From a virus, in IMG/VR virus record IMGVR_UViG_3300029787_000120, positions 1 through 40,152 of that record: 40,152 nt of DNA; one strand, written 5' to 3'. The notes under the pieces are model-generated. The model did no database searches, had not been told where the DNA came from, and saw only the letters and a list, made by a program, of their open reading frames with translations. This document shows positions 18,439-38,944 of this stretch, piece by piece. A program made the position numbers and the translations under genes. Positions within the stretch are counted from its first letter, which is position 1. The number at the start of each line of letters is the position of its first letter.

Positions 18439-19133
18439 TATGCGTTGTTATAACTCCGTAAGTTAGGTGTAATGTTAAATGATGCACGGTCTTCATCAGT
18501 AGACAATGCTCTTTGAAACTCCTCTTCATACAAACCTTTTAGCAACCCGGTTCTCTCTGGCGCTCTTTTCAAGGACATGTAATAAGCCAGCCCAGCAGCT
18601 AAACATGGATAAAACCGAAACGGCATATCTAATGTATTAGCGCCTGCGTCTGCGTCATCCATTCTTGTTAGAACATTCATGTGAACAACATAAGTGCTAG
18701 ATTTGTCTGGCGTTGGCCAAACTTTGATAGTTGGTGTTGTTTGTTTGTTTATAAAATATTGGTTTGGCTTACCAGTGCTAGATTTTGTTGTTATATGTGA
18801 ATACTCTGCTCTGCTTAGTCTTGTAAGCGGTAGATCTGTGGTTTCAGTACCTACTGTTTCTCTTATAAACACATCTAATACATCTATAGGTGCTGTAGCG
18901 TTGGTGCTATCTATGTTGTATGTTGCAGTATCTTTGACCATGTCTAGAGTTTTTTCTTGCACAGTCCATTGATTTAGACCTCTGTTTGCCCACTCAGCAA
19001 GCATAAGATTTAGGCTTCTTGTTGCACTTTTAAGATCATAACCTGTTCTAAGCTCTAAACCACAGCGCTCAAAAGCCTCCTCAACGTAATCAGCTACATC
19101 TAATTCAAAATCTTTACTGCCTGATAATGCCAT
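18438..19133 (-). CDS. Probable head-tail adaptor / tail accessory protein, 231 aa
   Basis: The N-terminus (DVADYVEEAFERCGLEL, then RSLNLMLAEWANRGLNQWTV) is a helical pair that resembles the N-terminal helices of P22 gp4-type tail accessory factors. The middle has beta strands (TYNIDSTNATAPIDVLDVF, TPTIKVWPTPD) and the C-terminal part returns to helices (YPCLAAGLAYYMSLK). This plan is typical of connector proteins that bind under the portal. It is first of the adaptor trio in transcription order. Confidence is moderate as no alignment was run. Confidence 0.6.
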   Translation of the reverse strand: MALSGSKDFELDVADYVEEAFERCGLELRTGYDLKSATRSLNLMLAEWANRGLNQWTVQEKTLDMVKDTATYNIDSTNATAPIDVLDVFIRETVGTETTDLPLTRLSRAEYSHITTKSSTGKPNQYFINKQTTPTIKVWPTPDKSSTYVVHMNVLTRMDDADAGANTLDMPFRFYPCLAAGLAYYMSLKRAPERTGLLKGLYEEEFQRALSTDEDRASFNITPNLRSYNNA

Positions 19134-19135
19134 AA

Positions 19136-19825
19136 TTACTCTCTATCTTCGTCTGAGGCATATAAATTGTCAAATGTAGATACTGGATCTGTGTAACTCT
19201 CATGTGCCTCAGCTGAGTGAACCCACTGTGATGGAGAAAAATCTGGTGGTCCTTCACCTGTTCTCCATAAAGCTGGATTAGTTGCTCTAACGCGATTATT
19301 TGGCAAAGCAACAAAATTACCTGTGTATTCACCAGCGTTAGTCAAGTATAGCACATGACTTTGTTTGTGTTGTGCGGGATCATCTGCTATTGAGTGCTCA
19401 GTATAATCAACGGTAAACATATATTTGCCTAGATAAAACTCACCACCTATTTTGCAATACCACGGACTTGAGCTAACTCGATCTAAGATAACCACGCTAT
19501 GATGATGACTTAGACAATCCCAAGGTTGTGCTAAATGATCTTCCATTGGTTTTGGCCACTCTGGTAAAGGTATATCGCCTACGAGCGCTTGTATTGGCAT
19601 CCTTGCCCACATGGCTCCACCATGTACATTTTCATCAGGATAGCCTTCAAAATCAGTTTCACAACCTGTAAATACCACTTGGAAGGAGAGAGATCTGTCC
19701 GGGATTGTGTTGACTGCAAAAGCCAAGGCATGCAAATACTCACCATGCCCATGTTGATGATTGGTTGTAAACTCTTTTCTTACCCAGCATTTAAACTGCG
19801 GGATATTTGATATTAAATACGCCAC
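19136..19825 (-). CDS. Histidine/tryptophan-rich conserved protein, 229 aa
   Basis: The product starts MAYLISNIPQFKCWVRKEFT and has clustered histidines (NHQHGHGEYLH near residue 22, LSHHHSVVIL near residue 107) and many Trp/Pro. The segment pattern is beta-rich, and the overall look is of a compact globular domain with a possible metal site. I recall similar proteins in marine phages among structural genes, without assigned function. It is separated by two bases from the adaptor gene downstream and by 20 bases from the basic-protein cluster upstream. Confidence 0.6.
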   Translation of the reverse strand: MAYLISNIPQFKCWVRKEFTTNHQHGHGEYLHALAFAVNTIPDRSLSFQVVFTGCETDFEGYPDENVHGGAMWARMPIQALVGDIPLPEWPKPMEDHLAQPWDCLSHHHSVVILDRVSSSPWYCKIGGEFYLGKYMFTVDYTEHSIADDPAQHKQSHVLYLTNAGEYTGNFVALPNNRVRATNPALWRTGEGPPDFSPSQWVHSAEAHESYTDPVSTFDNLYASDEDRE

Positions 19826-19845
19826 CTTATTTAATTAAAAAAGTA

Positions 19846-20118
19846 TTACCTTTTTCCGCCTTTTGCTCTGTATTTGGTGCCTTTCATGCCGCCACCTTTA
19901 GCCATACCTTTTGTGCTTTTAATTTTTGCTATATCGCCACCTAAAGCCATTCTTACAGAGGCTGGCATATTGCTCATGCCTGGATTAGCTTTCATTTCGC
20001 TCATCAAAGCAGCTCCGCCTTTAGCCATGTACTTAGTTCCTTTCATACTACCACCTTTGGCCATATATTTAGTCCCTTTCATACCACCGCCTCTTGCCAT
20101 GTATTTACTTTTTTTCAT
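19846..20118 (-). CDS. Repeat protein with KYMAKGG units, very basic, 90 aa
   Basis: The product is built from repeats of KYMAKGG-x-MKGT, with three near-identical tandem copies at the N-terminus and degenerate copies at the C-terminus around a short helical middle (LMSEMKANPGMSNMPASVRM). Lysine, methionine and glycine dominate, and there is almost no acid. No catalytic motif is present. It is the last of six consecutive small basic genes. A nucleic-acid- or capsid-associated role is plausible, but only by composition. Confidence 0.7.
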   Translation of the reverse strand: MKKSKYMARGGGMKGTKYMAKGGSMKGTKYMAKGGAALMSEMKANPGMSNMPASVRMALGGDIAKIKSTKGMAKGGGMKGTKYRAKGGKR

Positions 20119-20121
20119 TTT

Positions 20122-20430
20122 TTATCTCCTTCCAAACAAACCCATGTTTGAACTGTTGTTAATAATACCACCTTTTGCTGCAAAAGTTTTCACATTAGTA
20201 GGTTTACCACCTACACCTTGTTTTTTTGCACGCTTGCGAGTGACCGCTGATCTAATTTGTGACTTAGTCATGCGCTTTGCTTTTGATCTTGGCACGCATT
20301 TTGGATACTTGCGTTTAGATCCTTTTGCAGAAGCACGACCACATTTTTGAAATTTGCCCTTTTTCTTAGGCGCACCTATATCTACCCAATCTCCTTTAGG
20401 GCCTTTGCCAAACCATTCTTTAAGTGACAT
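20122..20430 (-). CDS. Small basic marine-phage-type protein, 102 aa
   Basis: The product begins MSLKEWFGKGPKGDWVDIGA and continues with KFQKCGRASAKGSKRKYPKC, MTKSQIRSAVTRKR and GGKPTNVKTF. I recognise this arrangement as a family recurrent in marine phages (cyanophages and pelagiphages, from memory). Two Cys near residues 30 and 45 could be paired or bind metal. It is strongly basic. The start shares one base with the stop of the preceding gene (TAATG). Function is unknown. Confidence 0.7.
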   Translation of the reverse strand: MSLKEWFGKGPKGDWVDIGAPKKKGKFQKCGRASAKGSKRKYPKCVPRSKAKRMTKSQIRSAVTRKRAKKQGVGGKPTNVKTFAAKGGIINNSSNMGLFGRR

Positions 20431-20717
20431 TACTTCTTCCTACTCCGTCTTATGGCTTCTTTACCGCGCTTAAACACGTTAGCAATACCGGTTTTACCCA
20501 TAACTTTGGCTCTTTGTTCGCCCACCGTTAAAATTTGGATTTTTCTAGCAAACGGTTTTTTTATACGCTTTACTTTATTAACAGTAGCGTTTGCATCCTT
20601 CATAGTAGCAAACTTGATGCTAACAGTGTCCTTAGGATTTTCGTCAGTATATAAACGTCTGCCCGAACCTTTAGGTTTTTTACCTGTGCCTTTTTTTGGA
20701 TCTCTTTTTTTTCTCAT
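20430..20717 (-). CDS. Small basic protein, 95 aa
   Basis: The first 20 residues are almost all Lys/Arg/Gly, followed by GRRLYTDENPKDTVSIKFAT, then TVNKVKRIKKPFARKIQILT and VGEQRAKVMGK. The centre alternates strand and helix like a small alpha/beta domain, suggesting a folded core with a disordered basic N-terminus. I recall near-identical motifs in marine phage proteins of unknown function. It overlaps the 55-aa gene upstream by four bases (ATGA). Confidence 0.7.
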   Translation of the reverse strand: MRKKRDPKKGTGKKPKGSGRRLYTDENPKDTVSIKFATMKDANATVNKVKRIKKPFARKIQILTVGEQRAKVMGKTGIANVFKRGKEAIRRSRKK

Positions 20718-20881
20718 CGGGACAATCTTCGTTTTAAACGTTTTTTATACTTAGCACTCTTTCTTTTGGTGCCATCTGATCGTTTTATTAGACCTCTTGC
20801 CTTGGCTGAGGCTCGCTCACTAAAACCCAGTTTTTTTCTTTGTCTAAGTTTGCGTCTTATAGTGCTACCTTTGGCAACCAT
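20714..20881 (-). CDS. Very small arginine/lysine-rich protein, 55 aa
   Basis: The 55-residue frame runs from ATG 20881 (which shares a base with the stop of the 163-aa gene) to a TGA that overlaps the next gene's ATG. Both overlaps make it a genuine gene despite its size. The sequence starts MVAKGSTIRRKLRQRKKLGF and ends KYKKRLKRRLSR; roughly half of the residues are Lys/Arg. It has the composition of a DNA-condensing or RNA-binding peptide. No family is recognised. Confidence 0.7.
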   Translation of the reverse strand: MVAKGSTIRRKLRQRKKLGFSERASAKARGLIKRSDGTKRKSAKYKKRLKRRLSR

Positions 20882-21372
20882 TAGCTTCTTGGAACTCTAG
20901 TTTTTTTGCGTTTTGAATCCATCATGGCGCCACAGCCTCTGCCTTGAACCATTGTTACAGCTCCGCCGTTACGCATAAAACCCATTTTGTTTCTAACTCG
21001 TTTTGGTAACTTTGGTAAGCCTTTATTATCAGCTGGTATTGGTTTGAGGTTTTTATTATTTACCTCACCGCCAACAGCTTTCTTAGCTCCCTTATACTTA
21101 CCACCGCGTTTTTTGTAAGTTCTAACCAACCAAGCGTTTGCGTATGCGCTGGGGTAAACATCAAACTTTCTTTTTGCTTCTGCTTTGACCCGAGCATACA
21201 AGCTTGGATTCGCAACATTGCTTGGTGCACCAGACTTCTTCTTAGCTTTACCACCTTTTTTAAGTTTTAATGTCTCTAAAGTCTTAGCTTGTTTGGCATG
21301 CGTGTTGCTTGCTTTTTTAAGAGCTTTGGATACTTTGTTTATTTTTTTTCTTGCGTTTTTTCTAACAATCAT
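20881..21372 (-). CDS. Basic protein with DUF5872-like segment, 163 aa
   Basis: The N-terminal 50 residues are Lys-rich and helical. Residues about 56–95 contain PSLYARVKAEAKRKFDVYPS then AYANAWLVRTYKKRGGKYK, which I recognise as a DUF5872-type signature found in phages and large algal viruses, from memory. The C-terminus is Gly/Met/Arg-rich (FMRNGGAVTMVQGRGCGAMM) and ends in basic residues. The gene is the longest in the run of six basic genes. A virion-packaged DNA-associated role is possible but unproven. Confidence 0.7.
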   Translation of the reverse strand: MIVRKNARKKINKVSKALKKASNTHAKQAKTLETLKLKKGGKAKKKSGAPSNVANPSLYARVKAEAKRKFDVYPSAYANAWLVRTYKKRGGKYKGAKKAVGGEVNNKNLKPIPADNKGLPKLPKRVRNKMGFMRNGGAVTMVQGRGCGAMMDSKRKKTRVPRS

Positions 21373-21681
21373 TTAACACTTCCACCTTCTTCTTGCTTGC
21401 CTAATTCTAGAATTAGGATTATTTCTTGTTTTAGCTGAACTTTTTTTGAGTTGGCCTAAAGATCTAGCGCAAAATGACTTTCGTCTTTTTGCAGCTTTGC
21501 TACCTTTTTTGACCTTACCAGTAACAGCACCTTTTAATTTTGAACCTGGATTCTTTTTACGATAGGCTTTTATGCCTTTACGCGTCATCCCGGCTCCCTG
21601 TTTGGTAGGGCGATAATTACCGCCCTTGCCAACAGTGCGTCGGACTTGTTTTGCCCTACGCTTTGGTTTTTTTACAGCCAT
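21373..21681 (-). CDS. Small basic DUF6321-like protein, 102 aa
   Basis: Motifs GAGMTRKGIKAYRKKNPGSK and KKGSKAAKRRKSFCARSLGQ are the signature I recall for DUF6321, widespread in marine phages and some bacteria. The protein is extremely basic throughout and ends ARRRWKC. One base separates its stop (21373) from the start of the next basic gene (21372). It is the first of the six basic genes in transcription order, directly behind the 134-aa virion protein gene with a shared base. Confidence 0.75.
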   Translation of the reverse strand: MAVKKPKRRAKQVRRTVGKGGNYRPTKQGAGMTRKGIKAYRKKNPGSKLKGAVTGKVKKGSKAAKRRKSFCARSLGQLKKSSAKTRNNPNSRIRQARRRWKC

Positions 21682-22085
21682 TAGCCGTAATTTTTATTCA
21701 ATATCAAAATGATAGAGTAAGCATCGCCACTAGAGTGTCCTACCGTTGTAAAGTCGATATCTCCTGTTACGCCTGAACCTGCATTATTTGGTATTCCAGA
21801 AAACTGGTCAAAATACTCGTCACCAGAACTATCTGGAGCCAAAGTCACTGCTAAAACATTAGTGCTAGCATCAAACTCGATGTCAACACCCATGCCTCGG
21901 CAAAACCAATGTATTCTTGAAATAGCTACGCTAGTACAAGCTCTGCCCTTGCTGTCACCTTGCAGTGCCGAAACATCGACTTTTTTAACAGAAGATTCGC
22001 CTGTGCCATCAGATTCATTAGTAAATTTTAATATAGCAAGCCTCTCACCATCTTGAATGGTTTGTGAGGTAACTGTATCAGCCAT
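21681..22085 (-). CDS. Small virion protein, 134 aa, beta-rich
   Basis: The product begins MADTVTSQTIQDGERLAILK, then FTNESDGTGESSVKKVDVS. It ends VTGDIDFTTVGHSSGDAYSI followed by ILILNKN. I recognise the pattern (MADTVTS…ISDGTGES…TGDI..TT.GHSSGD.Y.I.L) as a small virion structural family widely present in marine myo- and podophages, from memory. A beta-sandwich fold is expected, and decoration or collar roles have been suggested for such proteins. It is nine bases downstream of the 236-aa gene. Confidence 0.7.
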   Translation of the reverse strand: MADTVTSQTIQDGERLAILKFTNESDGTGESSVKKVDVSALQGDSKGRACTSVAISRIHWFCRGMGVDIEFDASTNVLAVTLAPDSSGDEYFDQFSGIPNNAGSGVTGDIDFTTVGHSSGDAYSIILILNKNYG

Positions 22086-22094
22086 TATCTACTC

Positions 22095-22805
22095 CTATAA
22101 CTCTGTAACTGCTGTTCTTTCTTTGTAAGCACCTACATAGTCAACGGTAAGTGTTTTTGCAGCAGCAGCACCATTTTGAATACCAAAGGAGAGAGCAAGC
22201 TCTTCATCGTCTGGTGCATTAGTGCTAACCACTGTGCCAGCTAGAACATTATTTTGGTAAACATGAAACTTTTGATCTTTTGGATCATAAATAAATCCTA
22301 ATGTCATAAAAGTGTCATCTGCCAAAGAGTTAGGCAAAGTTAAAGTAGATTGTGTGCTGTCTTTTTCAACAATAAAGCTGATAGTTGCAGCTCCATCTGA
22401 TTTTAAAAAGAACACACCATCTGTTACATCCAATGGTGTTGTGTCAGTTAGTTGTAAACCAGCGACAATATCAGACTGAGTAGCGTCATTAGTTTTAAAT
22501 CTAATGTGAAACCCGATCTGTTTGCCTGCTTCATACTTATAACCTTCCTTCACCAATTGAAAAAAGTCGTGGTCATTATCAGCATCGTCATTGGTAATCA
22601 ACAACAACCCGCCGTCACCGTCAGTTAAGGCCTCACTGGCGTTACCAGAGCCACCTTCTGTTGTTGTTATTGTCCAATCAGACGCTAGGTAAGTATCAAA
22701 ATCATTAAAGTATTGATGATACTTGTGTGGTGCAGGTGCTTTTAATTTACCTAATGTTCCGTCAGACGAGACATTGGTAACACCCGAAGTAAAATGCGTA
22801 GTCAT
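22095..22805 (-). CDS. Virion protein with jelly-roll-like pattern, 236 aa
   Basis: The ATG at 22805 has an AGGAGG eight bases upstream. The sequence is Thr/Asp-rich with alternating strands (YFNDFDTYLASDWTITTTEG, QIGFHIRFKTNDATQSDIVA, FHVYQNNVLAGTVV), the plan of a concanavalin-type jelly roll with a Trp/Asp entry strand. Such proteins are common as head-decoration or carbohydrate-binding virion parts in marine phages, as I recall. It is the first gene behind the promoter at 22872–22900, so this promoter would start the second virion block. Confidence 0.6.
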   Translation of the reverse strand: MTTHFTSGVTNVSSDGTLGKLKAPAPHKYHQYFNDFDTYLASDWTITTTEGGSGNASEALTDGDGGLLLITNDDADNDHDFFQLVKEGYKYEAGKQIGFHIRFKTNDATQSDIVAGLQLTDTTPLDVTDGVFFLKSDGAATISFIVEKDSTQSTLTLPNSLADDTFMTLGFIYDPKDQKFHVYQNNVLAGTVVSTNAPDDEELALSFGIQNGAAAAKTLTVDYVGAYKERTAVTEL

Positions 22806-26545: not shown

Positions 26546-27474
26546 TTTGCCTCCCTGGACTGTATGCGTTGTTTTTCTTTAGCAACGGACTTAATCCACG
26601 CGTCTTCCGACATACCATGTGGTTTTAATCCACGGAGTCTGGCAACTTCAGATTTTGAAAATTGCACACCGTTCTTTTTGCCTTGTGTTTTTTGCCGACC
26701 TCCTACAGAGGCTGAGGCGACTCTTTGCACAGCGGGTCTATCCTCACTTTGTTCAGCGTTTCCTGATTGTAAACCAGGATAAACTTTATAAACTCTTTGA
26801 TTTAAAGCTTCGTAATACTCATTAGAATCAGGCTCATATCCTTCATTAACGAGATTCATGTGCGTATATTGCGCATATTGTGTTGCTTCAACATCTTCAC
26901 CAAACCAACTATTCTTTGATTTCCATTCAAGTGCTTCTTGTGTTGGTTGCACAAGTGCTTCTTGTGGCTGTTGTTGATAGGTTTGTGGCTGTTGTTGACC
27001 TTGAAACGCTTGTTGATTTTGTGTATTAGCCTCTTCCTGTCTTTGTTTGGCTATACGAACTTTCTCTTTTTGTATGGATACCTCGTTTTTAAGGCTGTCA
27101 GCTTTGGATATTAAATCAGCATCGCCAGATTCATGTGCTTTTTTGTAAAGCTGATCGGCTTCGCGTTCTTTAATTTGTACTGCTTCTTCTTCTTTTGCCA
27201 ACAAATTTTGCTGATAAGTAACAGCTGCATTGTAATATTGCTGTACTTGTTGATCTTTTTGCAAAAGCTCTTGCTCTAATCTAGCTGCTTTTTCCTCAGC
27301 CTCTCTTCTTTTTGCATTAACTTTATTAATTCTTTTTGATACACCTTTGGTGTAATTTTCTAACTCATCGTCACTTGAGGGCGCTGCTACGTCCTGTTGT
27401 TCAGATTCAGTAACCTCTACCTCAATTTCTTCAACCTCAGGTTGTATTTGATTTTGTTCGTTTTCTGTCGTCAT
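26542..27474 (-). CDS. Scaffold protein, 310 aa
   Basis: It is located between portal/GroES and capsid genes. The N-terminus is very acidic (VEEIEVEVTESEQQ). A long predicted coiled coil spans about residues 40–150 (KRREAEEKAARLEQELLQKD), then a Gln-rich linker (QQPQTYQQQPQEA). The C-terminal part is basic and helical (KSEVARLRGLKPHGMSEDAW), typical for the capsid-binding end of scaffolds. Known scaffolds guide procapsid assembly and are removed before packaging. No protease motif is visible. Confidence 0.8.
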   Translation of the reverse strand: MTTENEQNQIQPEVEEIEVEVTESEQQDVAAPSSDDELENYTKGVSKRINKVNAKRREAEEKAARLEQELLQKDQQVQQYYNAAVTYQQNLLAKEEEAVQIKEREADQLYKKAHESGDADLISKADSLKNEVSIQKEKVRIAKQRQEEANTQNQQAFQGQQQPQTYQQQPQEALVQPTQEALEWKSKNSWFGEDVEATQYAQYTHMNLVNEGYEPDSNEYYEALNQRVYKVYPGLQSGNAEQSEDRPAVQRVASASVGGRQKTQGKKNGVQFSKSEVARLRGLKPHGMSEDAWIKSVAKEKQRIQSREAK

Positions 27475-27911
27475 AAGCTCACTATATCATCTGGATCAAG
27501 AATTGTGGCTATAATTTCATCATCATTGATGATTCGTACCTCTGCACCATCCTCAAGTTTAAATCTCGAACCAGAGTAGCGTCCGATTAAAACCCATTGT
27601 TTTTCTTCACACCAAGGCGTTTCTCCATACCTAGATTTATCGTTATAACAAAGCGGTCCTTTTTTAACCACATAAGCTACGACGGTTGCTAGCGCCTCAC
27701 GATCTGTTGTTTGTTTTGTTAATACAATGCCACCTTCTGTTTTTGCTTTACCAGCGTAAGGTAAAACCAACATACGCCAGCCTGTCGGTTGCGGCATCCT
27801 TTCTAAAATTGACGCATCAAGTTTTTCTGGATCAAGAACCCGGTCACTAGGATCGATATAAGCCTCAGCCACTTTTTTGTTTTGTTCTGTATTTTGTGCT
27901 GGCTCTGTCAT
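27471..27911 (-). CDS. GroES-like co-chaperonin, 146 aa
   Basis: After a polar N-terminus of about 40 residues, the sequence has the Cpn10 order: PTGWRMLVLPYAGKAKTEGG (strand plus mobile-loop region, GGIVL as in bacterial GroES), then a YVVKKGPLCYNDK strand, VLIGRYSGSRFKLEDGAEVR and INDDEIIATI at the end. These correspond to the PL.DRV…GGI.L…A.V…V..GD.V.F……YLI..E.DILA pattern of GroES (PF00166). The likely job is to cap the host GroEL and fold the capsid protein, as T4 gp31 does. Genomic placement between portal and scaffold agrees. It is longer than the ~97 residues of bacterial GroES because of the N-terminal extension and a larger central loop. Confidence 0.85.
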   Translation of the reverse strand: MTEPAQNTEQNKKVAEAYIDPSDRVLDPEKLDASILERMPQPTGWRMLVLPYAGKAKTEGGIVLTKQTTDREALATVVAYVVKKGPLCYNDKSRYGETPWCEEKQWVLIGRYSGSRFKLEDGAEVRIINDDEIIATILDPDDIVSL

Positions 27912-28093: not shown

Positions 28094-28363
28094 TTAAGAT
28101 TTTTTTGGCCTACCTCTTTTTTTTGCCGCTGGTTTTTTTGGTTTTGCTTTTTTTACTGTAGTTTTTTTCTTGGCTGGCTTTTCCTCTTCGACAACTTCGC
28201 CGTTAATTCTTGCCATCTTTTGAGCCAACCTTTCCATATTAGCTTGATGAGCTTTCTCAGCTTGCTCAAGCTTTGCTTTATGTTCAATTGCCTCTTGCTC
28301 TCTAAGAACTTTTTTTTCAGCTGCAAGTTTTTTTTGTGCCTCTAATTTATATGATGTGGTCAT
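28094..28363 (-). CDS. Coiled-coil protein with H1-like, AT-hook tail, 89 aa
   Basis: Residues 5–55 form a Lys/Glu/Ala-rich helix (LEAQKKLAAEKKVLREQEAI). The last 30 residues are Lys/Ala/Pro-rich (AKKKTTVKKAKPKKPAAKK) and end in KRGRPKKS, the R-G-R-P core of an AT-hook that binds the minor groove of AT-rich DNA. Similar histone-H1-like tails are known from bacterial nucleoid proteins. It overlaps the portal gene by four bases. A role in packaging, head DNA organisation or host gene regulation is possible; none is shown. Confidence 0.7.
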   Translation of the reverse strand: MTTSYKLEAQKKLAAEKKVLREQEAIEHKAKLEQAEKAHQANMERLAQKMARINGEVVEEEKPAKKKTTVKKAKPKKPAAKKRGRPKKS

Positions 28364-33867: not shown

Positions 33868-34168
33868 TGTTTACCCTTGTTTCAATAAGTCCGGGTTTAG
33901 CAATTGCTAATTTGGACAAATTATGTCTTTTAAAAATGTCAAGGTATCTTGACATCTCTAATTCGATTTCTTGGTTCTTAGATTGAAGCTCTAACAAACT
34001 ATTTGTTTGCAATGTAAAATCATCTTGTAAATTCTCAATTGTTGCTTTTTGCTCGGCATCTCTTACAGTGTAAGCGTCATTAAGTGTAGATAATTTACTG
34101 TTTTGCAAATACAAAAAACTACATAACATAATCAATACGCCTACAACCCCTAATAATATTTTACTCAT
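33773..34168 (-). CDS. Inner-membrane i-spanin-like protein (Rz-type), 131 aa
   Basis: One N-terminal membrane segment (ILLGVVGVLIMLCSFLYLQN) without cleavage site, then a periplasmic coiled coil (about residues 25–85: VRDAEQKATIENLQDDFTLQ and LLELQSKNQEIELEMSRYLD). Next comes KPGLIETRVNNGTKDVFDSI, a motif I recall from i-spanin-like proteins of marine phages. Such proteins span the periplasm with an o-spanin to disrupt the outer membrane during lysis. The start overlaps the stop of the cyclase gene by eight bases, and the 3' end contains the start of the lipoprotein gene in another frame. Confidence 0.75.
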   Translation of the reverse strand: MSKILLGVVGVLIMLCSFLYLQNSKLSTLNDAYTVRDAEQKATIENLQDDFTLQTNSLLELQSKNQEIELEMSRYLDIFKRHNLSKLAIAKPGLIETRVNNGTKDVFDSIEKDTASIDDLDDGLQLQPNTD

Positions 34169-35912
34169 CGACTGTCCATATAGTTAGTTTGTCTTTTTTA
34201 CCTTTTACATTTATAGGTTTTAGTAATTTTAATACAATTTTACAATTTTTTGCAGTTTGATCGCCAATTAAGATATCGACACCTACTTCTTTGGTTGCCG
34301 ACTCTAGCCTTGCTGCTGTGTTTACAGGATCTCCGATAGCAGAATAATCAAACCGAGTATCAGATCCCATATTACCTATAACTGCATATCCAGACTGACA
34401 GCCTACGCCTACTGCAACCGGAGTAGATAATGTTTTGTTAAGTTCGCCTATGCCTTTTTGTATATCTATTGCGGCTTGCACCACTTTGGTTTCGTGATCT
34501 TCACAATCCAAGGGTGCTCCAAATATAAACATCCCAGCATCGCCGATAAATTTATCTGTCATGCCACCTAATTTTTGCACTGCGTTTACCTGAACAGTTA
34601 AGGTTTTGTTCATTATTTCAGTAACTTCTTCTGGCGGTAACTTTTCACTTAATGAAGTAAATCCGCGCAAATCGGTGAAAAGATAACTGCAATATTTTTT
34701 TTCGCCACCAAGTTTGAGTGCTTCGGGTGTTTTTTGCAAAATTGCAATCTGTCGTTTGTCTAAATAATGTTCAAATTGTTTTTTAATTTGCTGGCGTAAT
34801 AAATACTCTTTTCTAAAGCGTAAATAGAAAATAACGCTGCCAACAACAAATTCTGATGCTAAAGTCCATGAAAAATCTAGTAAAATGCCGTTTTTTATGC
34901 TGAAAACGCCTAAGAAGCCTGTCAAAGCCATAAAAATCAGTCCGAAGGCTAACGCCTTGGTCATACTAAGATATGCGCATACAAGCGAAACTGTAAGCAC
35001 AAAAATTGTAAAAATTAAAATTTCGGCTGCTAGTGCCCAATCTGGTATTTTTGGTGAGTCTTGAATCAAAATTGACTCAGCTAACGCTGCTTGAACTTTG
35101 TGTGGCCCAAGCAAACCGACAGGGGTTGCGATTTGCGGCATGACACCTGGTGCATCTACAGAAACAAAAACAAACTTACCGTCAACATTCATTTCATCTA
35201 ATGTAGTTTCTGGAGTCTGCACCCAGCTAATCCATTTTCTACCTAAGCGGTCAACATCAACTGGTGGTAAACCTTGCACGGTTATTTGTTGCATACCGTT
35301 TTCATCACCTTTTATTATGTAGGTGTTAGCACCTGCTAAAACCTTTAAGACCTCTGTGCCATAGGATGAGACAAATCCATCTGGTGTTTGCATAAGCAAA
35401 GGTATTCTTCTAACCAAATTATCTATTTCGGTGGGAGCTGATGACAGACCTTGAGGAATATACATGAATAGTTGGCTGTTCGTGACAACTCCCTTTGCCA
35501 TAATACCACTTATATTTTCTCCAAGTAAAACAGTCCCGCTAGTTGGTGGATAAAAACCATTGTCATATTCAAACATAGCCAATACGCTTGGACTATAATT
35601 TAGTGCCTCTAAAAACACGTCATCACCACCAAAACGATCTGCCTGAGGAAAAGATACCACCCAACCAACTCCCAAAGCTCCTGCGTTTAATAAATCTACA
35701 TGTATTTGTGCAAGTTCTTGCCTTGGAAATGGCCAGCCACCGGATTGAAAGATATCCTCTTGAGTAATATTTAGAATAGCAAAATTACCACTTGGCTCAT
35801 ACTCTTTAACAAAAGTATCAAAAGTTTGTAGTTTCAATATCTGTAAAGGATATAACTGAAACAACAGTGGCAACAATAGTATTATAAATACTGTGAATAT
35901 TATCTTTTTCAT
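34161..35912 (-). CDS. CHASE2-domain class III adenylate/guanylate cyclase, 583 aa
   Basis: N-terminal signal-anchor (residues 4–20), a periplasmic CHASE2-like domain (about 30–290, with FDTFVKEYEPSG, VNVDGKFVFVSVDAPG-type strands), three transmembrane helices (about 296–317, 328–346, 355–373), then a class III catalytic domain (about 405–583). Metal-binding Asp414 (LFTDLRGFTSLSEKL) and Asp458 (DKFIGDAGMFIFG) are present, with Lys454 for base recognition, Asn531 and Arg535 (SAIGDPVNTAARLES). The base-selective position is Ser524, where adenylate cyclases have Asp or Thr. All catalytic residues are intact, so a functional cyclase making cAMP (less likely cGMP) in the cytoplasm after a periplasmic cue is expected. 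It overlaps FecR by four bases and the spanin by eight. Confidence 0.9.
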   Translation of the reverse strand: MKKIIFTVFIILLLPLLFQLYPLQILKLQTFDTFVKEYEPSGNFAILNITQEDIFQSGGWPFPRQELAQIHVDLLNAGALGVGWVVSFPQADRFGGDDVFLEALNYSPSVLAMFEYDNGFYPPTSGTVLLGENISGIMAKGVVTNSQLFMYIPQGLSSAPTEIDNLVRRIPLLMQTPDGFVSSYGTEVLKVLAGANTYIIKGDENGMQQITVQGLPPVDVDRLGRKWISWVQTPETTLDEMNVDGKFVFVSVDAPGVMPQIATPVGLLGPHKVQAALAESILIQDSPKIPDWALAAEILIFTIFVLTVSLVCAYLSMTKALAFGLIFMALTGFLGVFSIKNGILLDFSWTLASEFVVGSVIFYLRFRKEYLLRQQIKKQFEHYLDKRQIAILQKTPEALKLGGEKKYCSYLFTDLRGFTSLSEKLPPEEVTEIMNKTLTVQVNAVQKLGGMTDKFIGDAGMFIFGAPLDCEDHETKVVQAAIDIQKGIGELNKTLSTPVAVGVGCQSGYAVIGNMGSDTRFDYSAIGDPVNTAARLESATKEVGVDILIGDQTAKNCKIVLKLLKPINVKGKKDKLTIWTVDE

Positions 35913-37030
35913 CCAGAGCTTTGTTTTATTGTAATAACAGAAGATGATGTGCCGTTGATTTGTACAGTTTTAGTAACACCGTCTTGTATAAAGATAACCG
36001 TGTAAGAATCATCGCCATTTACCAAAACTTGTGCATTTTGATTTACCATGCGCATTAGCTTGACCTGGTTGCCTTGTATTATTGTTGTTATCTGTGTCTC
36101 TAAATCTTGTCCAAAGCTAGTACCAACTAGCTGAACACCGTTAGAAAAATTTGTTAATTGATCCTCTTCATCTTCAATACCTAGCCCATCTAATACATCT
36201 AACAAGTTTTCAAAAAAGTCAGTCGCTAGGTAATCTATATCAAGCTCTGAAAAAGACATGTCCTCTTCTTCCTCCAAAAAGTCTTCTGCCAAAGCATCAA
36301 TTTCTAGATCGCTAAAATCCAAATAATCTGATTGTTCACTTTGTTGTTGCTCCTCATTAATAACTTCTTCTTTGGGTGGCGAGACAATAAGCATGTTGTC
36401 AATAAAATTCAGATCTATGTCTAAGGTTATTGGTTTCGTTGGTGCTTTCTCATACATGGAAGTGGTGGTTGCTTGATATGGCTTATTAAGTACAGTTTGC
36501 CCAGCTGCGGTTTGCACCACAATCTCACCGCTAGCGTTACCAAATTCATCCGGGAGCAAGATTATAAGCGCCTTGCCCAAAAGATCAACGCTACACACAA
36601 AATCAGTACCTTGCACAAAAATTTGTGAAGTAGGCGTAGATAGCGTAATGTTTTTCTTTTTAAGCTTGTTTGCATTACCACTGATAAACCGTATTGTGCC
36701 ACTAGCAAACTGTAAAGCCATTTTAGATTTATCTGGGTTGCTATTGAAGACGTATTCATTTATGAGCAGATTGCTGTGCTCTGTAAGTTTTACAGTAGAC
36801 TCATCAAGAAATGTTATAGCGATGCGGCCAGCTGAGGTTTCAACATTATCTAAAGAGTTTATGTCAAAATCTAACTCAGCAGCAAAAGTCTCGTCTCTTA
36901 CAACTCTGCCGTATCCTGTTAATTCAGTAATATCTCCTATCGCATCAGCATGAAGTGGTGGTGCCACCATCATTTTGAACGACGCAAATATTAGAATTTG
37001 AAGAATTAGTTGAGATGGATAACCAATCAC
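35909..37030 (-). CDS. FecR-domain secreted protein, 373 aa
   Basis: GTG start at 37030 yields a signal peptide (hydrophobic LILQILIFASF, cleavage near HADA, residue 30). Residues 60–150 carry the FecR fold pattern (VETSAGRIAITFLDESTVKL, MALQFASGTIRFISGN, TLSTPTSQIFVQGTDFV), known as a periplasmic/surface beta domain in PF04773. Residues about 221–290 are strongly acidic (FLEEEEDMSFSELDIDYLAT) and the C-terminus is again beta-type (DDSYTVIFIQDGVTKTVQIN). There is no transmembrane helix, so it is probably periplasmic or exported. FecR proteins paired with CHASE2 cyclases occur in bacteria, as I recall, suggesting that FecR presents the signal. It overlaps the curlin-like gene by 86 bases. An ATG start at 36973 would remove the signal peptide. 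Confidence 0.8.
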   Translation of the reverse strand: MIGYPSQLILQILIFASFKMMVAPPLHADAIGDITELTGYGRVVRDETFAAELDFDINSLDNVETSAGRIAITFLDESTVKLTEHSNLLINEYVFNSNPDKSKMALQFASGTIRFISGNANKLKKKNITLSTPTSQIFVQGTDFVCSVDLLGKALIILLPDEFGNASGEIVVQTAAGQTVLNKPYQATTTSMYEKAPTKPITLDIDLNFIDNMLIVSPPKEEVINEEQQQSEQSDYLDFSDLEIDALAEDFLEEEEDMSFSELDIDYLATDFFENLLDVLDGLGIEDEEDQLTNFSNGVQLVGTSFGQDLETQITTIIQGNQVKLMRMVNQNAQVLVNGDDSYTVIFIQDGVTKTVQINGTSSSVITIKQSSG

Positions 37031-37670
37031 GAGCTAAAGTTGAAGATTGTGTGATGTCTAGCGTGTTATTACTGCCATCAAGATCTAAATTAAAATAACC
37101 AGCATCAGATGCTGTAGTACCAGAGTATCCGCTAGCAGTAAAATTTATTGTGTTAGTGCTGCCGTTTATGTCCATATAGTTGACTGCGTTTTCATAATCT
37201 ATATCAAAATCAAACACGTTAGAATCGCCAGTGATAATCCAATCTAAATTAAGATAAGAGGAATCAGCGTTTTCTGCTATTTTAATATCTGCCTCATTAC
37301 TAGATCCTGTAACATCAATATTCAGGTCAACATAATCAGCAGTAATCAAGCCTGTAGAGTTCATCAACAAGTCCCAAACATTGCTATCACCATCAAACTC
37401 AAAAAAACCAGTAAAGTTATCGCCATCAATACCGTCTGATCTAAATATGTTTGAAGATCCTATTTGATTGATGTCAAGTGTCATTGACACTCCATCGAGG
37501 TCAAGTGCGGTCATCGAGGTTGTAGTAGCGCTGGTCCCACCGATAAGGTTTGAAGAGCCGAGCTGTTCTAGATCTATAGTAGCTGAGTTCCCGGTTTGGT
37601 CTACAAAGATTTCGTTGTCTGCAAAAATAGTTGTGCTAAACAATAAAAGAAACAAAAGTTTATTCATCAT
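36945..37670 (-). CDS. Secreted curlin-like repeat protein (CsgA/CsgB-type cargo?), 241 aa
   Basis: A Sec signal peptide (LLFLLLFSTTIFA, cleavage at residue 17) precedes repeats of the curlin type: QTGNSATIDLEQLGSSN, LDINQIGSSN, then variants with G-S/D-S-N and no conserved Gln (FDGDSNVWDL, DVTGSSNEADI, ITGDSNVFDF, INGSTNTINF, LDGSNNTLDI). The spacing of 20–30 residues fits one rung of a beta-solenoid. The C-terminus has two Cys (NICVVQN and the final residue). The gene follows csgG directly (overlap 11 bases), exactly where a substrate of the CsgG pore would be expected. It is not a close curlin, so whether it forms amyloid is unknown. Confidence 0.75.
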   Translation of the reverse strand: MMNKLLFLLLFSTTIFADNEIFVDQTGNSATIDLEQLGSSNLIGGTSATTTSMTALDLDGVSMTLDINQIGSSNIFRSDGIDGDNFTGFFEFDGDSNVWDLLMNSTGLITADYVDLNIDVTGSSNEADIKIAENADSSYLNLDWIITGDSNVFDFDIDYENAVNYMDINGSTNTINFTASGYSGTTASDAGYFNLDLDGSNNTLDITQSSTLARDWLSISTNSSNSNICVVQNDGGTTTSC

Positions 37671-38505
37671 AATATTTCCAAAAATTTCGTTCGCGCCCTT
37701 GTTTTACAATATCTACAATACCAATTTCTATAGCTGATTGCAAAGCGATAGACTTGCTTTCATTCATGGCATTTCCTGTTTCAAACTCTATTAATTCTGT
37801 CGAGTTATTAGTAAACCTAAATACATCGCTTGAAATACCTACGGATAAAATAGTCCTAGTCGTTAAGTTTTCTAATAAAATTTCACCAGTGCTAACGGAG
37901 ACAACTCTAATAGAAACCAAAACAGTATCCTCCCGGTATTGTTTTGATCTGCCGATGCCAAGCGTTCTGGCTCCCGCACCTCCAGTTCTTAAATTAGTGT
38001 TGTAATCTACAATACCACCTTCAATAATAAGTCCAGCAAAGAGTAACGGCAGTTGTTCTGTTTCATCCTCAAACTTCTCGCGAGTCGACCTAATTATTTG
38101 GCGTTCACGGGTGATGTGATCTATATTTACACGCTCTACTACACGAAAAAAGCCAGACTGTTTCAATGCTCTTATAAGATAAGTCTCAGGTGCTTGTGTC
38201 ATAGCTGTGCTGAAATTTGCATAGCCGTCTACTGATTTTCTTTGTCCGGTAAAGTCACCAAACTTATACACAGCAACTATGGGTTGATCTTTGGGTTTAG
38301 GTATATCAAGTATTTCTTCCGTTATCGGTAGATTAATAAAAGCGTCCTTGGAAAAACATTGAGCTTTGCCAACGATGGAGACAAGATCTTTGTAATCTCC
38401 TTCGGGGTTAGTAAGACATGGTGATATTAATTTAGCGTGCGAAGAGCAACTAATTACCAAAACCAAAGTCGCCGATTGGTACAATAATTTCAGTAGTCGT
38501 GCCAT
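37660..38505 (-). CDS. csgG: CsgG-like outer-membrane curli secretion pore
   Basis: The lipoprotein signal ends VLVISC (Cys20). From residue 76 the sequence follows E. coli CsgG: IVAVYKFGDFTGQRK, NFSTAMTQAPETYLIRALKQ, ERQIIRSTRE, GGAGARTLGIG, IRVVSVSTGEILLEN, ILSVGISSDVFRFTNN, SAIEIGIVDIVKQGRERNFW. The constriction loop keeps Asn97/Phe98 (N55/F56 in E. coli) with Tyr95 shifted by a one-residue insertion. About 35 extra residues follow the lipobox, with two Cys (30, 50). CsgG forms a nonameric channel that exports unfolded curlin. It overlaps csgF by 56 bases and the curlin-like gene by 11. Outer-membrane localisation in the host is implied. Confidence 0.93.
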   Translation of the reverse strand: MARLLKLLYQSATLVLVISCSSHAKLISPCLTNPEGDYKDLVSIVGKAQCFSKDAFINLPITEEILDIPKPKDQPIVAVYKFGDFTGQRKSVDGYANFSTAMTQAPETYLIRALKQSGFFRVVERVNIDHITRERQIIRSTREKFEDETEQLPLLFAGLIIEGGIVDYNTNLRTGGAGARTLGIGRSKQYREDTVLVSIRVVSVSTGEILLENLTTRTILSVGISSDVFRFTNNSTELIEFETGNAMNESKSIALQSAIEIGIVDIVKQGRERNFWKYYDE

Positions 38506-38944
38506 CTAAAGTATTAAAAATAGTTAGGGTTATGTAAGTCCCGTCGCTGGACCAACTGATTATGTTATCAAATAAAGTAAAAGATCCTGTGGTCTCAGGG
38601 TTCTCGCCAAATAACTGTTCTACGATCTGTCTACTTATTTGTGCAAAGATGCGTGATTCTAGGTTTTTAGTAAATCTAGAAATTACTGAGTTTTCTTCGT
38701 CTCTTTTTCTTTGTTCTTCTAAGGCCTTCAAGTCTGCTTTTAATTGTTCTTTCCGTGAAAACTCTTGTTGCTCTATCGTAAGATAATGTGCTGAGGTGCC
38801 AATACCACTGAAAGATGGAGATTTGAAATTAAATTTAATTTCGTCTGCTCGCAAGTTTGTGGCTAAAATACCTATAAATAAAACCAACGCCCATACAAAA
38901 ACTATTTTGTAATGGAGTGGTAGTTTAGTCTTTGTTTTCATCAT
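38450..38944 (-). CDS. csgF: CsgF-like curli assembly protein, 164 aa
   Basis: After a signal peptide (IVFVWALVLFIGILATNLRA, cleavage about residue 33) the mature end is IKFNFKSPSFSGIG, closely matching the FQFRNPNFGG segment by which CsgF plugs into the CsgG barrel. Residues 60–84 form a charged helix that is longer than in E. coli. RFTKNLESRIFAQISRQI parallels the FTQAIQSQIL helix, and the C-terminal strands (GTYITLTIFNTLDGTTTEII) match the DGQLQLNVTDRKTGQTSTI region of CsgF (PF10614). It would sit on the outside of the CsgG pore and help nucleation of the secreted fibre. It overlaps the membrane protein upstream by 20 bases and csgG by 56. Confidence 0.88.
   Translation of the reverse strand: MMKTKTKLPLHYKIVFVWALVLFIGILATNLRADEIKFNFKSPSFSGIGTSAHYLTIEQQEFSRKEQLKADLKALEEQRKRDEENSVISRFTKNLESRIFAQISRQIVEQLFGENPETTGSFTLFDNIISWSSDGTYITLTIFNTLDGTTTEIIVPIGDFGFGN

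Follow-up and report, generated by a model that had tools for sequence, protein, structure and literature searches.

Small basic genes in the virion operon of a pelagiphage-like virus and their relatives in a cyanophage multidomain protein

What function could be served by a run of small, very basic genes lodged among the virion genes of a phage? The question is raised by IMG/VR virus record IMGVR_UViG_3300029787_000120, whose whole stretch of 40,152 bases is called here the window. Six such genes, p1 to p6, follow one another in that order on its minus strand (from 21681 down to 19846; Table 1), with terminase, portal, GroES and capsid genes upstream and head-tail (tail-adaptor) genes downstream. 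The virus is pelagiphage-like: its closest annotated relatives are two Pelagibacter phages, HTVC027P and HTVC023P; over a short stretch across p1 it also matches the smaller HTVC100P/Skadi/HTVC010P phages. An earlier inspection of the letters (the original prediction) had placed the genes in a virion operon, as is confirmed here, and had proposed a set of packaged DNA- or capsid-binding proteins, an interpretation that is partly supported. As judged from sequence profiles, the p1, p2, p4 and p5 families reappear as domains within one protein, T4-GC119, in the T4-like cyanophage S-SM2, p2 weakly so. We lean, by a small measure, towards p1 to p6 belonging to a kit of short basic modules that are shuffled, and that marine phages carry inside the head as cargo packed with the genome.

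Domains of a single cyanophage protein

Hidden Markov models (HMMs) of the modules were trained only on small stand-alone genes, with 32 to 69 unique sequences each and cores taken from short cut-outs. In the 708-residue T4-GC119 protein of S-SM2 (SSM2_109), whose gene adjoins the terminase genes, they matched p4 at residues 11-97 (1.4e-14), p5 at 243-327 (9.9e-7), p2 at 445-488 (6.2e-4) and p1 at 635-708 (2.7e-14). Pairwise BLASTP comparison with this protein gave 6e-14 for the window p4 and 4e-9 for the p5 of HTVC023P. Other combinations detected by HMM were p5, p2 and p1 in S-B43, p5 and p1 in Sf-CH8 and ACG-2014f, and p2 (2.1e-4) with p1 in S-SM1. By eye, a 618-residue protein of Bellamy has the same four domains as that of S-SM2; its p4 region shares 97% identity with the S-SM2 one, so that Bellamy does not count as an independent case. 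A first pointer to fusions was given by PHROGs, in which the families matched by p1 to p6 are mostly of unknown function: p1 matched eight profiles at or near their C-terminal end.

The T4-GC119 proteins (SSM2_109, SSM1_115 of S-SM1, and relatives) resemble the window cluster in several ways. They end with p1 (DUF6321 is the last domain of those of cyanomyoviruses), they include p5 and a p2-like domain depending on the phage, and p4 in S-SM2 and Bellamy, and their gene lies in the head/terminase block. They differ in being a single long chain that has linkers, additional Cys-rich modules and DUF192, in having cyanobacterial hosts, and in that counterparts of p3 and p6 were not seen. The DUF192 domain is located between the p5 and p2 modules in S-SM2 (locus L087, 1087-3213; Pfam 3.6e-24), and by eye Bellamy (locus L349, 3471-5327) is alike. 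When searched against the PDB, the S-SM2 protein gave two DUF192-like entries and weak matches, mostly to a Gly/Asn-rich stretch. Another module, GLYANIHAKRKR..., is encoded by its own gene adjoining DUF6321 in P-SCSP1d and Ran and lies within the DUF6321 protein in P-SSM7. A p4-like domain was also present in an uncultured-virus protein named cytidyltransferase-like (structure-library match).

The six genes of the window are real, coupled protein genes. Their lengths and coordinates were as first described, and so were their basic character (pI 10.8-12.0) and close packing: junctions overlap by 1 or 4 bases or abut, and p5 and p6 are 3 bases apart. Lys and Arg together make up 24-44% of the residues and Gly 7-21%, and the net charges sum to +173. 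Seven of the 35 minus-strand genes listed for 5727-33485 are strongly basic, defined as a pI above 10, and a run of at least six of these seven is found in 841 of 6,724,520 arrangements (1.3e-4). When each of p1 to p6 was compared with four or five relatives, third codon positions were the most divergent in all six families (0.36-0.52, compared to 0.06-0.17 for second positions); all six are therefore protein-coding and under purifying selection.

Table 1. The six basic genes of the window
Gene	Position	Strand	Product
p1	21373..21681	minus	102 residues, net charge +38, pI 12.0, DUF6321 (PF19846)
p2	20881..21372	minus	163 residues, net charge +41, pI 11.3, central DUF5872 core
p3	20714..20881	minus	55 residues, net charge +22, pI 12.0, without known family
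p4	20430..20717	minus	95 residues, net charge +25, pI 11.5, basic N-terminus and three-helix C-terminal domain predicted
p5	20122..20430	minus	102 residues, net charge +27, pI 11.6, PHROG 23735 (unknown function)
p6	19846..20118	minus	90 residues, net charge +20, pI 10.8, 12-residue Lys/Gly repeats

Module families and their shuffling

The family names DUF6321 and DUF5872, which had been given in the original prediction, hold in Pfam, the latter for part of p2. For p1, the DUF6321 match is above the curated cut-off (45.2 bits, cut-off 28.5) and covers profile positions 6-72 of 72; the same region was recovered in a search of the virus's own genome. It has 42 invariant positions, two of which are the cysteines C71 and C102; this pair is kept in 172 of 174 domains, the remaining two being cut short. 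The AlphaFold2 model of p1 is of low confidence (predicted template modelling score 0.40) and had no PDB match. The DUF5872 match of p2 (PF19197; 35.6 bits, cut-off 27.5) covers only profile positions 3-50 of 116, and p2 itself is built of segments that relatives encode alone. Its N-terminal segment resembles the stand-alone gp51 of HTVC027P (36 residues; 15 of 22 identical), which matches that segment only, its DUF5872 core alone is matched by HTVC027P gp49, and its C-terminal segment alone by the stand-alone gp75 of Roseobacter phage CRP-345 (71% over 31 residues). The window p2 has a Tyr pair where relatives have a Cys pair. Among 161 domains, the paired positions were Cys-Cys in 55, Tyr-Tyr in 88, Trp-Tyr in 6, Ser-Gln in 1 and gapped on one side in 11, with no mixed Cys/Tyr pair; such a joint switch fits two residues in contact. 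Since these data correspond to two large subfamilies, the number of independent events is small.

The p4 family has 21 invariant positions and no Pfam, PHROG or NCBIfam family above cut-off. Its AlphaFold2 model has a basic N-terminus that is disordered, followed by a confidently predicted three-helix domain (residues 39-94), for which Foldseek gave no PDB match with E below 0.001. The fold relatives proposed beyond that threshold, Dps/ferritin chains (Foldseek E 1.4 and worse) and designed proteins, are helical-bundle look-alikes and were not used; the best VIA-align hit, a designed helical filament protein (Z 8.8, root-mean-square deviation 2.9, 69 aligned), is within the chance range for helical bundles. 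The strong conservation of p1 and p4 argues for defined folds rather than loose charge. The Cys pair of p5 (CGR...YPKCVP) is kept in 156 of 159 domains. We discarded the idea that p1 or p5 binds zinc by itself, since each window protein has two Cys but lacks His; an intermolecular metal site would still be compatible with these residues. The repeat protein named in the original prediction is p6, where 12-residue Lys/Gly repeats flank a short non-repeat core; the copy number differs among relatives, some having more. Pfam-A searches with p1 to p6 (E up to 1) gave no match to HU, H-NS, HMG, histone or other DNA-binding families, and NCBIfam gave nothing for p1 to p6 or for the 708-residue S-SM2 protein. 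PDB sequence searches with p1, p4 and the P-SCSP1d DUF6321 protein, and an Rfam search of positions 19000-22500, gave no match.

In HTVC023P and HTVC027P, p1, p2 and p5 are likewise encoded individually by small basic genes, close to those for the capsid protein and GroES; in HTVC027P, which has several more such genes there, all three are found upstream of the GroES and capsid genes. These phages differ from the window in gene order and in a split p2 with a Cys pair, and neither p4 nor p3 was seen in the stretches read. Fusions also occur among uncultured viruses: in IMG/VR locus L013, p5 is followed by p6-like Lys/Gly repeats within one open reading frame (ORF), and in locus L047, p4 is the tail of a 646-residue protein.

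Co-occurrence was counted in 80 IMG/VR loci fetched per anchor, p4 having at least 597 relatives in that database. The accessory gene p3 was present in 11 of the 80 p4-anchored loci, and p6 in 26. The other counts were restricted to loci with 3 kb on both sides. Under this restriction, p5-anchored loci (20 of 80) carried p2 in 20 and p1 in 16 cases, p1-anchored loci (28 of 80) carried p2 in 19 and p5 in 16, and p4-anchored loci (27 of 80) carried p2 in 15, p5 in 13 and p1 in 10, while 8 of these loci lacked all three. In a further set of 80 loci anchored on the capsid protein, 15 of the 19 with at least 6 kb downstream had one or more of p1, p2, p4 and p5 there, and none of the 25 with at least 6 kb upstream had any of them on that side. 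We conclude that p1 to p6 are not one fixed set: p3 and p6 are sporadic, and order and fusion state vary. The 'set' originally proposed is supported for p1, p2, p4 and p5, which are mutual neighbours in IMG/VR as well as domains of one cyanophage protein.

The p1 family looks viral. A tblastn search with p1 found 163 phage records, mostly of Synechococcus phages, and a cyanophage query found 549 of 50,697. The phages concerned infect SAR11, Synechococcus/Prochlorococcus and Microcystis, with one listed for a gammaproteobacterial host. Among 84,980 bacterial and archaeal species genomes, relatives were found on 23 contigs from scattered phyla, mostly metagenome or single-cell assemblies, and in 18 of the 23 stretches a head, tail or GroES gene related to one of the window or of a pelagiphage is present as well. 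The part of PMC12085832 available lists a DUF5872 protein for an algal giant virus too. A literature search on DUF6321 and DUF5872 found one table entry and no functional paper.

Virions, targeting starts and protease sites

For relatives of these modules, published data report detection in the particle. The accessible part of the S-CREM2 virion table (PMC10665884), in which proteins are identified by coordinates, lists ORF137 with 4 unique peptides (4.1% coverage) and ORF160 with 7 peptides (13.1% coverage), and ORF136 was also detected in purified virions. The C-terminus of ORF137 is DUF6321 (Pfam 3.5e-10), and ORF160 matches p2 (5.8e-6, HMM) and p5 (4.4e-21 after HMM iteration); ORF136, which adjoins ORF137, is basic (+23). 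Proteins bearing p1, and p2 with p5, were thus detected in purified virions of S-CREM2. The word 'packaged' in the original prediction finds indirect backing here and in one T4-like start described below, both from relatives and neither from the window phage.

One alternative is that the modules are packaging or head-assembly factors, basic proteins associated with scaffold or terminase that act transiently and do not stay in the virion. The DUF6321 gene adjoins terminase genes in cyanomyoviruses (in or at the gp16-gp17 interval in 13 of 14 viewed) and scaffold or capsid genes in podoviruses: it lies between the capsid and tail-tube genes in P-SCSP1d, and between the scaffold and capsid genes in Ran and S-CBP4. 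In Synechococcus phage S-CBP4 (locus L098, 4001-4201), the DUF6321 stretch has no annotated gene in the record. The gene for the p4 protein of P-TIM68 comes two genes after the capsid gene. The S-CREM2 virion detections speak against transient factors, and we regard this alternative as quite unlikely; the accessible table (PMC10665884) also lists the prohead protease and the scaffold, so that assembly factors can show up there.

Head-internal cargo has a precedent in phage T4, whose internal proteins IPI to IPIII are small, packed with the DNA and present in about 360 copies each, according to the excerpt available of PMC9958956, which gives a capsid-targeting sequence of about 10 residues. 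IPII and IPIII begin MKTYQEFIAE-A, and the P-SSM7 DUF6321 protein has a T4-like N-terminus, MKTYSQFIEE-G. Similar starts are found in the S-CREM2 virion cytidylyltransferase (MKNFSSFLTE-A) and in ORF136 (MQTFSMFFSE-D). A pattern fitted to such starts was matched by 7 of the 846 mechanically called ORFs from seven cyanomyovirus stretches and by none of 5,173 ORFs of pelagiphage-like loci; T4 IPI does not fit it. Cyanophage cytidylyltransferases (locus L095, 20609-21469; locus L085, 462-1622) begin with a T4-like capsid-targeting stretch, which could account for their presence in S-CREM2 virions. The T4 proteins share with one DUF6321 protein, that of P-SSM7, the 10-residue start; they differ in being described as diverse anti-defence proteins, whereas the window modules are conserved across hosts. 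As the window proteins lack the targeting start, they are not members of the T4 internal-protein family, and they may work similarly. Another compared system, the packaged DNA-binding proteins of chlorella virus PBCV-1, belongs to a eukaryotic virus with an internal membrane.

The likeness to T4 also suggests injected effectors, that is, modules packed in the head that act after injection, with possible targets such as the nucleoid or RNA polymerase of the host or a defence system, in the manner of T4 IPI and Alt. IPI (an inhibitor of GmrSD) and IPIII are injected and required on certain hosts, as stated in the portions available of PMC3012670 and PMC9391042. The 42 and 21 invariant positions of p1 and p4 suggest a specific target, and the S-SM2 fusion bears a DUF192 domain as well. 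The host range of the p1 module, from SAR11 to a gammaproteobacterial host, makes a host-specific target unlikely, and the T4 internal proteins are, in contrast, described as highly diverse in the text available. On balance, effectors appear improbable, without being negligible.

Candidate sites for the prohead protease were seen between modules of the fusions. In 13 fusion or domain-bearing proteins, a hydrophobic-x-Glu motif ended at most 14 residues before 32 of 41 module starts, compared to 14.5 +/- 2.8 in linker shuffles (0 of 2000 reached 32) and 12.9 at random positions. No excess was seen with Lys/Arg/Gln, Asp/Glu/Asn or Gly/Ala/Ser/Thr in the hydrophobic position. In a held-out set of three further phages, the motif preceded 5 of 7 starts (2.6 expected; 80 of 2000 shuffles reached 5). 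The restriction to Ile or Leu, which is closer to the T4 protease rule, gave 13 of 41 compared to 5.3, and 4 of 7 compared to 1.1 in the held-out set. Because the motif was picked with the first set already in view, and because the proteins, being homologous, do not count as independent, the excess is a lead and not a proof.

Several further observations weigh against head-internal cargo, as do this post hoc choice and the 9 of 41 starts that lack the motif. The S-CREM2 coverage is low, with peptides possibly from non-basic parts of ORF137 and ORF160, and the authors raise carry-over for other proteins of the table (PMC10665884, part available). A literature search found no virion proteome of the window phage or a close relative. 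P-SCSP1u encodes DUF6321, yet no solved chain matches it, the protein being absent, disordered or unmodelled; the accessible part of the cryo-electron microscopy paper on this phage had no passage on it. The T4-like start is found in just 1 of the 14 DUF6321 cyanophage proteins viewed and in none of the six window proteins. The pairwise link of p2 to the cyanophage domain CYHKVK..WPSAYA..C is weak (13 residues, E 0.015), and Pfam DUF5872 gave no match to the cyanophage p2-like domains. That p3 and p6 were not seen in the cyanophage fusions also counts here, and p1 and p4 seem too conserved for a purely electrostatic role.

Gene placement raises a last difficulty. The DUF6321 gene is among helicase genes in Ma-LMM01, and in HTVC100P, HTVC203P and Lederberg it follows a peptidase M15 gene, near a DnaA-like gene. 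The placements in Ma-LMM01 and HTVC100P would suit accessory genes that are mobile, play no part in the virion (their products might, for example, be late proteins that bind RNA or ribosomes) and merely happen to travel with structural genes, as would the assignment of T4-GC119 to a mobile cassette in the part available of PMC3037559, the only source in which a literature search found the name. The S-CREM2 detections, the four-family fusion and the consistent place downstream of the capsid gene argue against this explanation, which we hold to be very unlikely.

A possible packing kit and its setting

For the modules as head-internal cargo, the packaged DNA is probably the partner, to judge from charge, conservation across unrelated capsids and location. 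The same modules occur with unrelated capsid types and in phages of many hosts, near capsid or terminase genes, and relatives are found in virions; packaged DNA would be the simplest common target. Capsid binding, the other option of the original prediction, is less likely because the modules are found with very different capsid proteins. The modules would be bound to the packaged DNA, shielding its charge and aiding its condensation, and would enter the host together with it. The Cys pairs of p1 and p5 and the Cys-or-Tyr pair of p2 may staple each small fold. Podovirus-like phages would express the modules from individual genes that lie downstream of the capsid gene and are translated together. 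In T4-like cyanophages they would be produced as one polyprotein, with hydrophobic-x-Glu sites between modules at which the prohead protease may cleave within the head. It is a tentative possibility, which we would rather doubt than assert, that this amounts to a mobile, capsid-independent 'phage chromatin' kit, whose stapled basic modules cover the packaged genome and enter together with it, the cyanophage head-targeted polyprotein being cut by the prohead protease into the modules that pelagiphages encode separately.

Other genes of the window were noted in passing. A GroES-like co-chaperonin gene is located in the head operon (27471-27911, minus; Pfam Cpn10, PHROG co-chaperonin GroES) and is common to HTVC023P and HTVC027P. 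The seventh strongly basic gene (28094-28363, minus; 89 residues, pI 10.2) comes directly after the portal gene; its product has no PHROG match and ends in KKRGRPKKS, which we take to resemble an AT-hook. At 34161-38944 (minus), Pfam identified genes for a CHASE2-nucleotide cyclase and for FecR-like, curlin-repeat, CsgG and CsgF proteins, a phage-borne set of curli secretion parts adjoining a signalling enzyme.

Pelagiphages and cyanophages rank among the ocean's most abundant viruses, and most of the small virion-operon genes of both are without function. With the finding that separate genes in one phage group correspond to domains of one protein in another, unnamed genes become one testable system, for which the published virion detections provide a foothold. 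Should the modules prove to coat phage DNA, a conserved set of proteins for packing DNA would exist in tailed phages beyond the T4 internal proteins. One could then test p1, p2, p4 and p5 jointly, and fusion state would predict which phages use protease processing.

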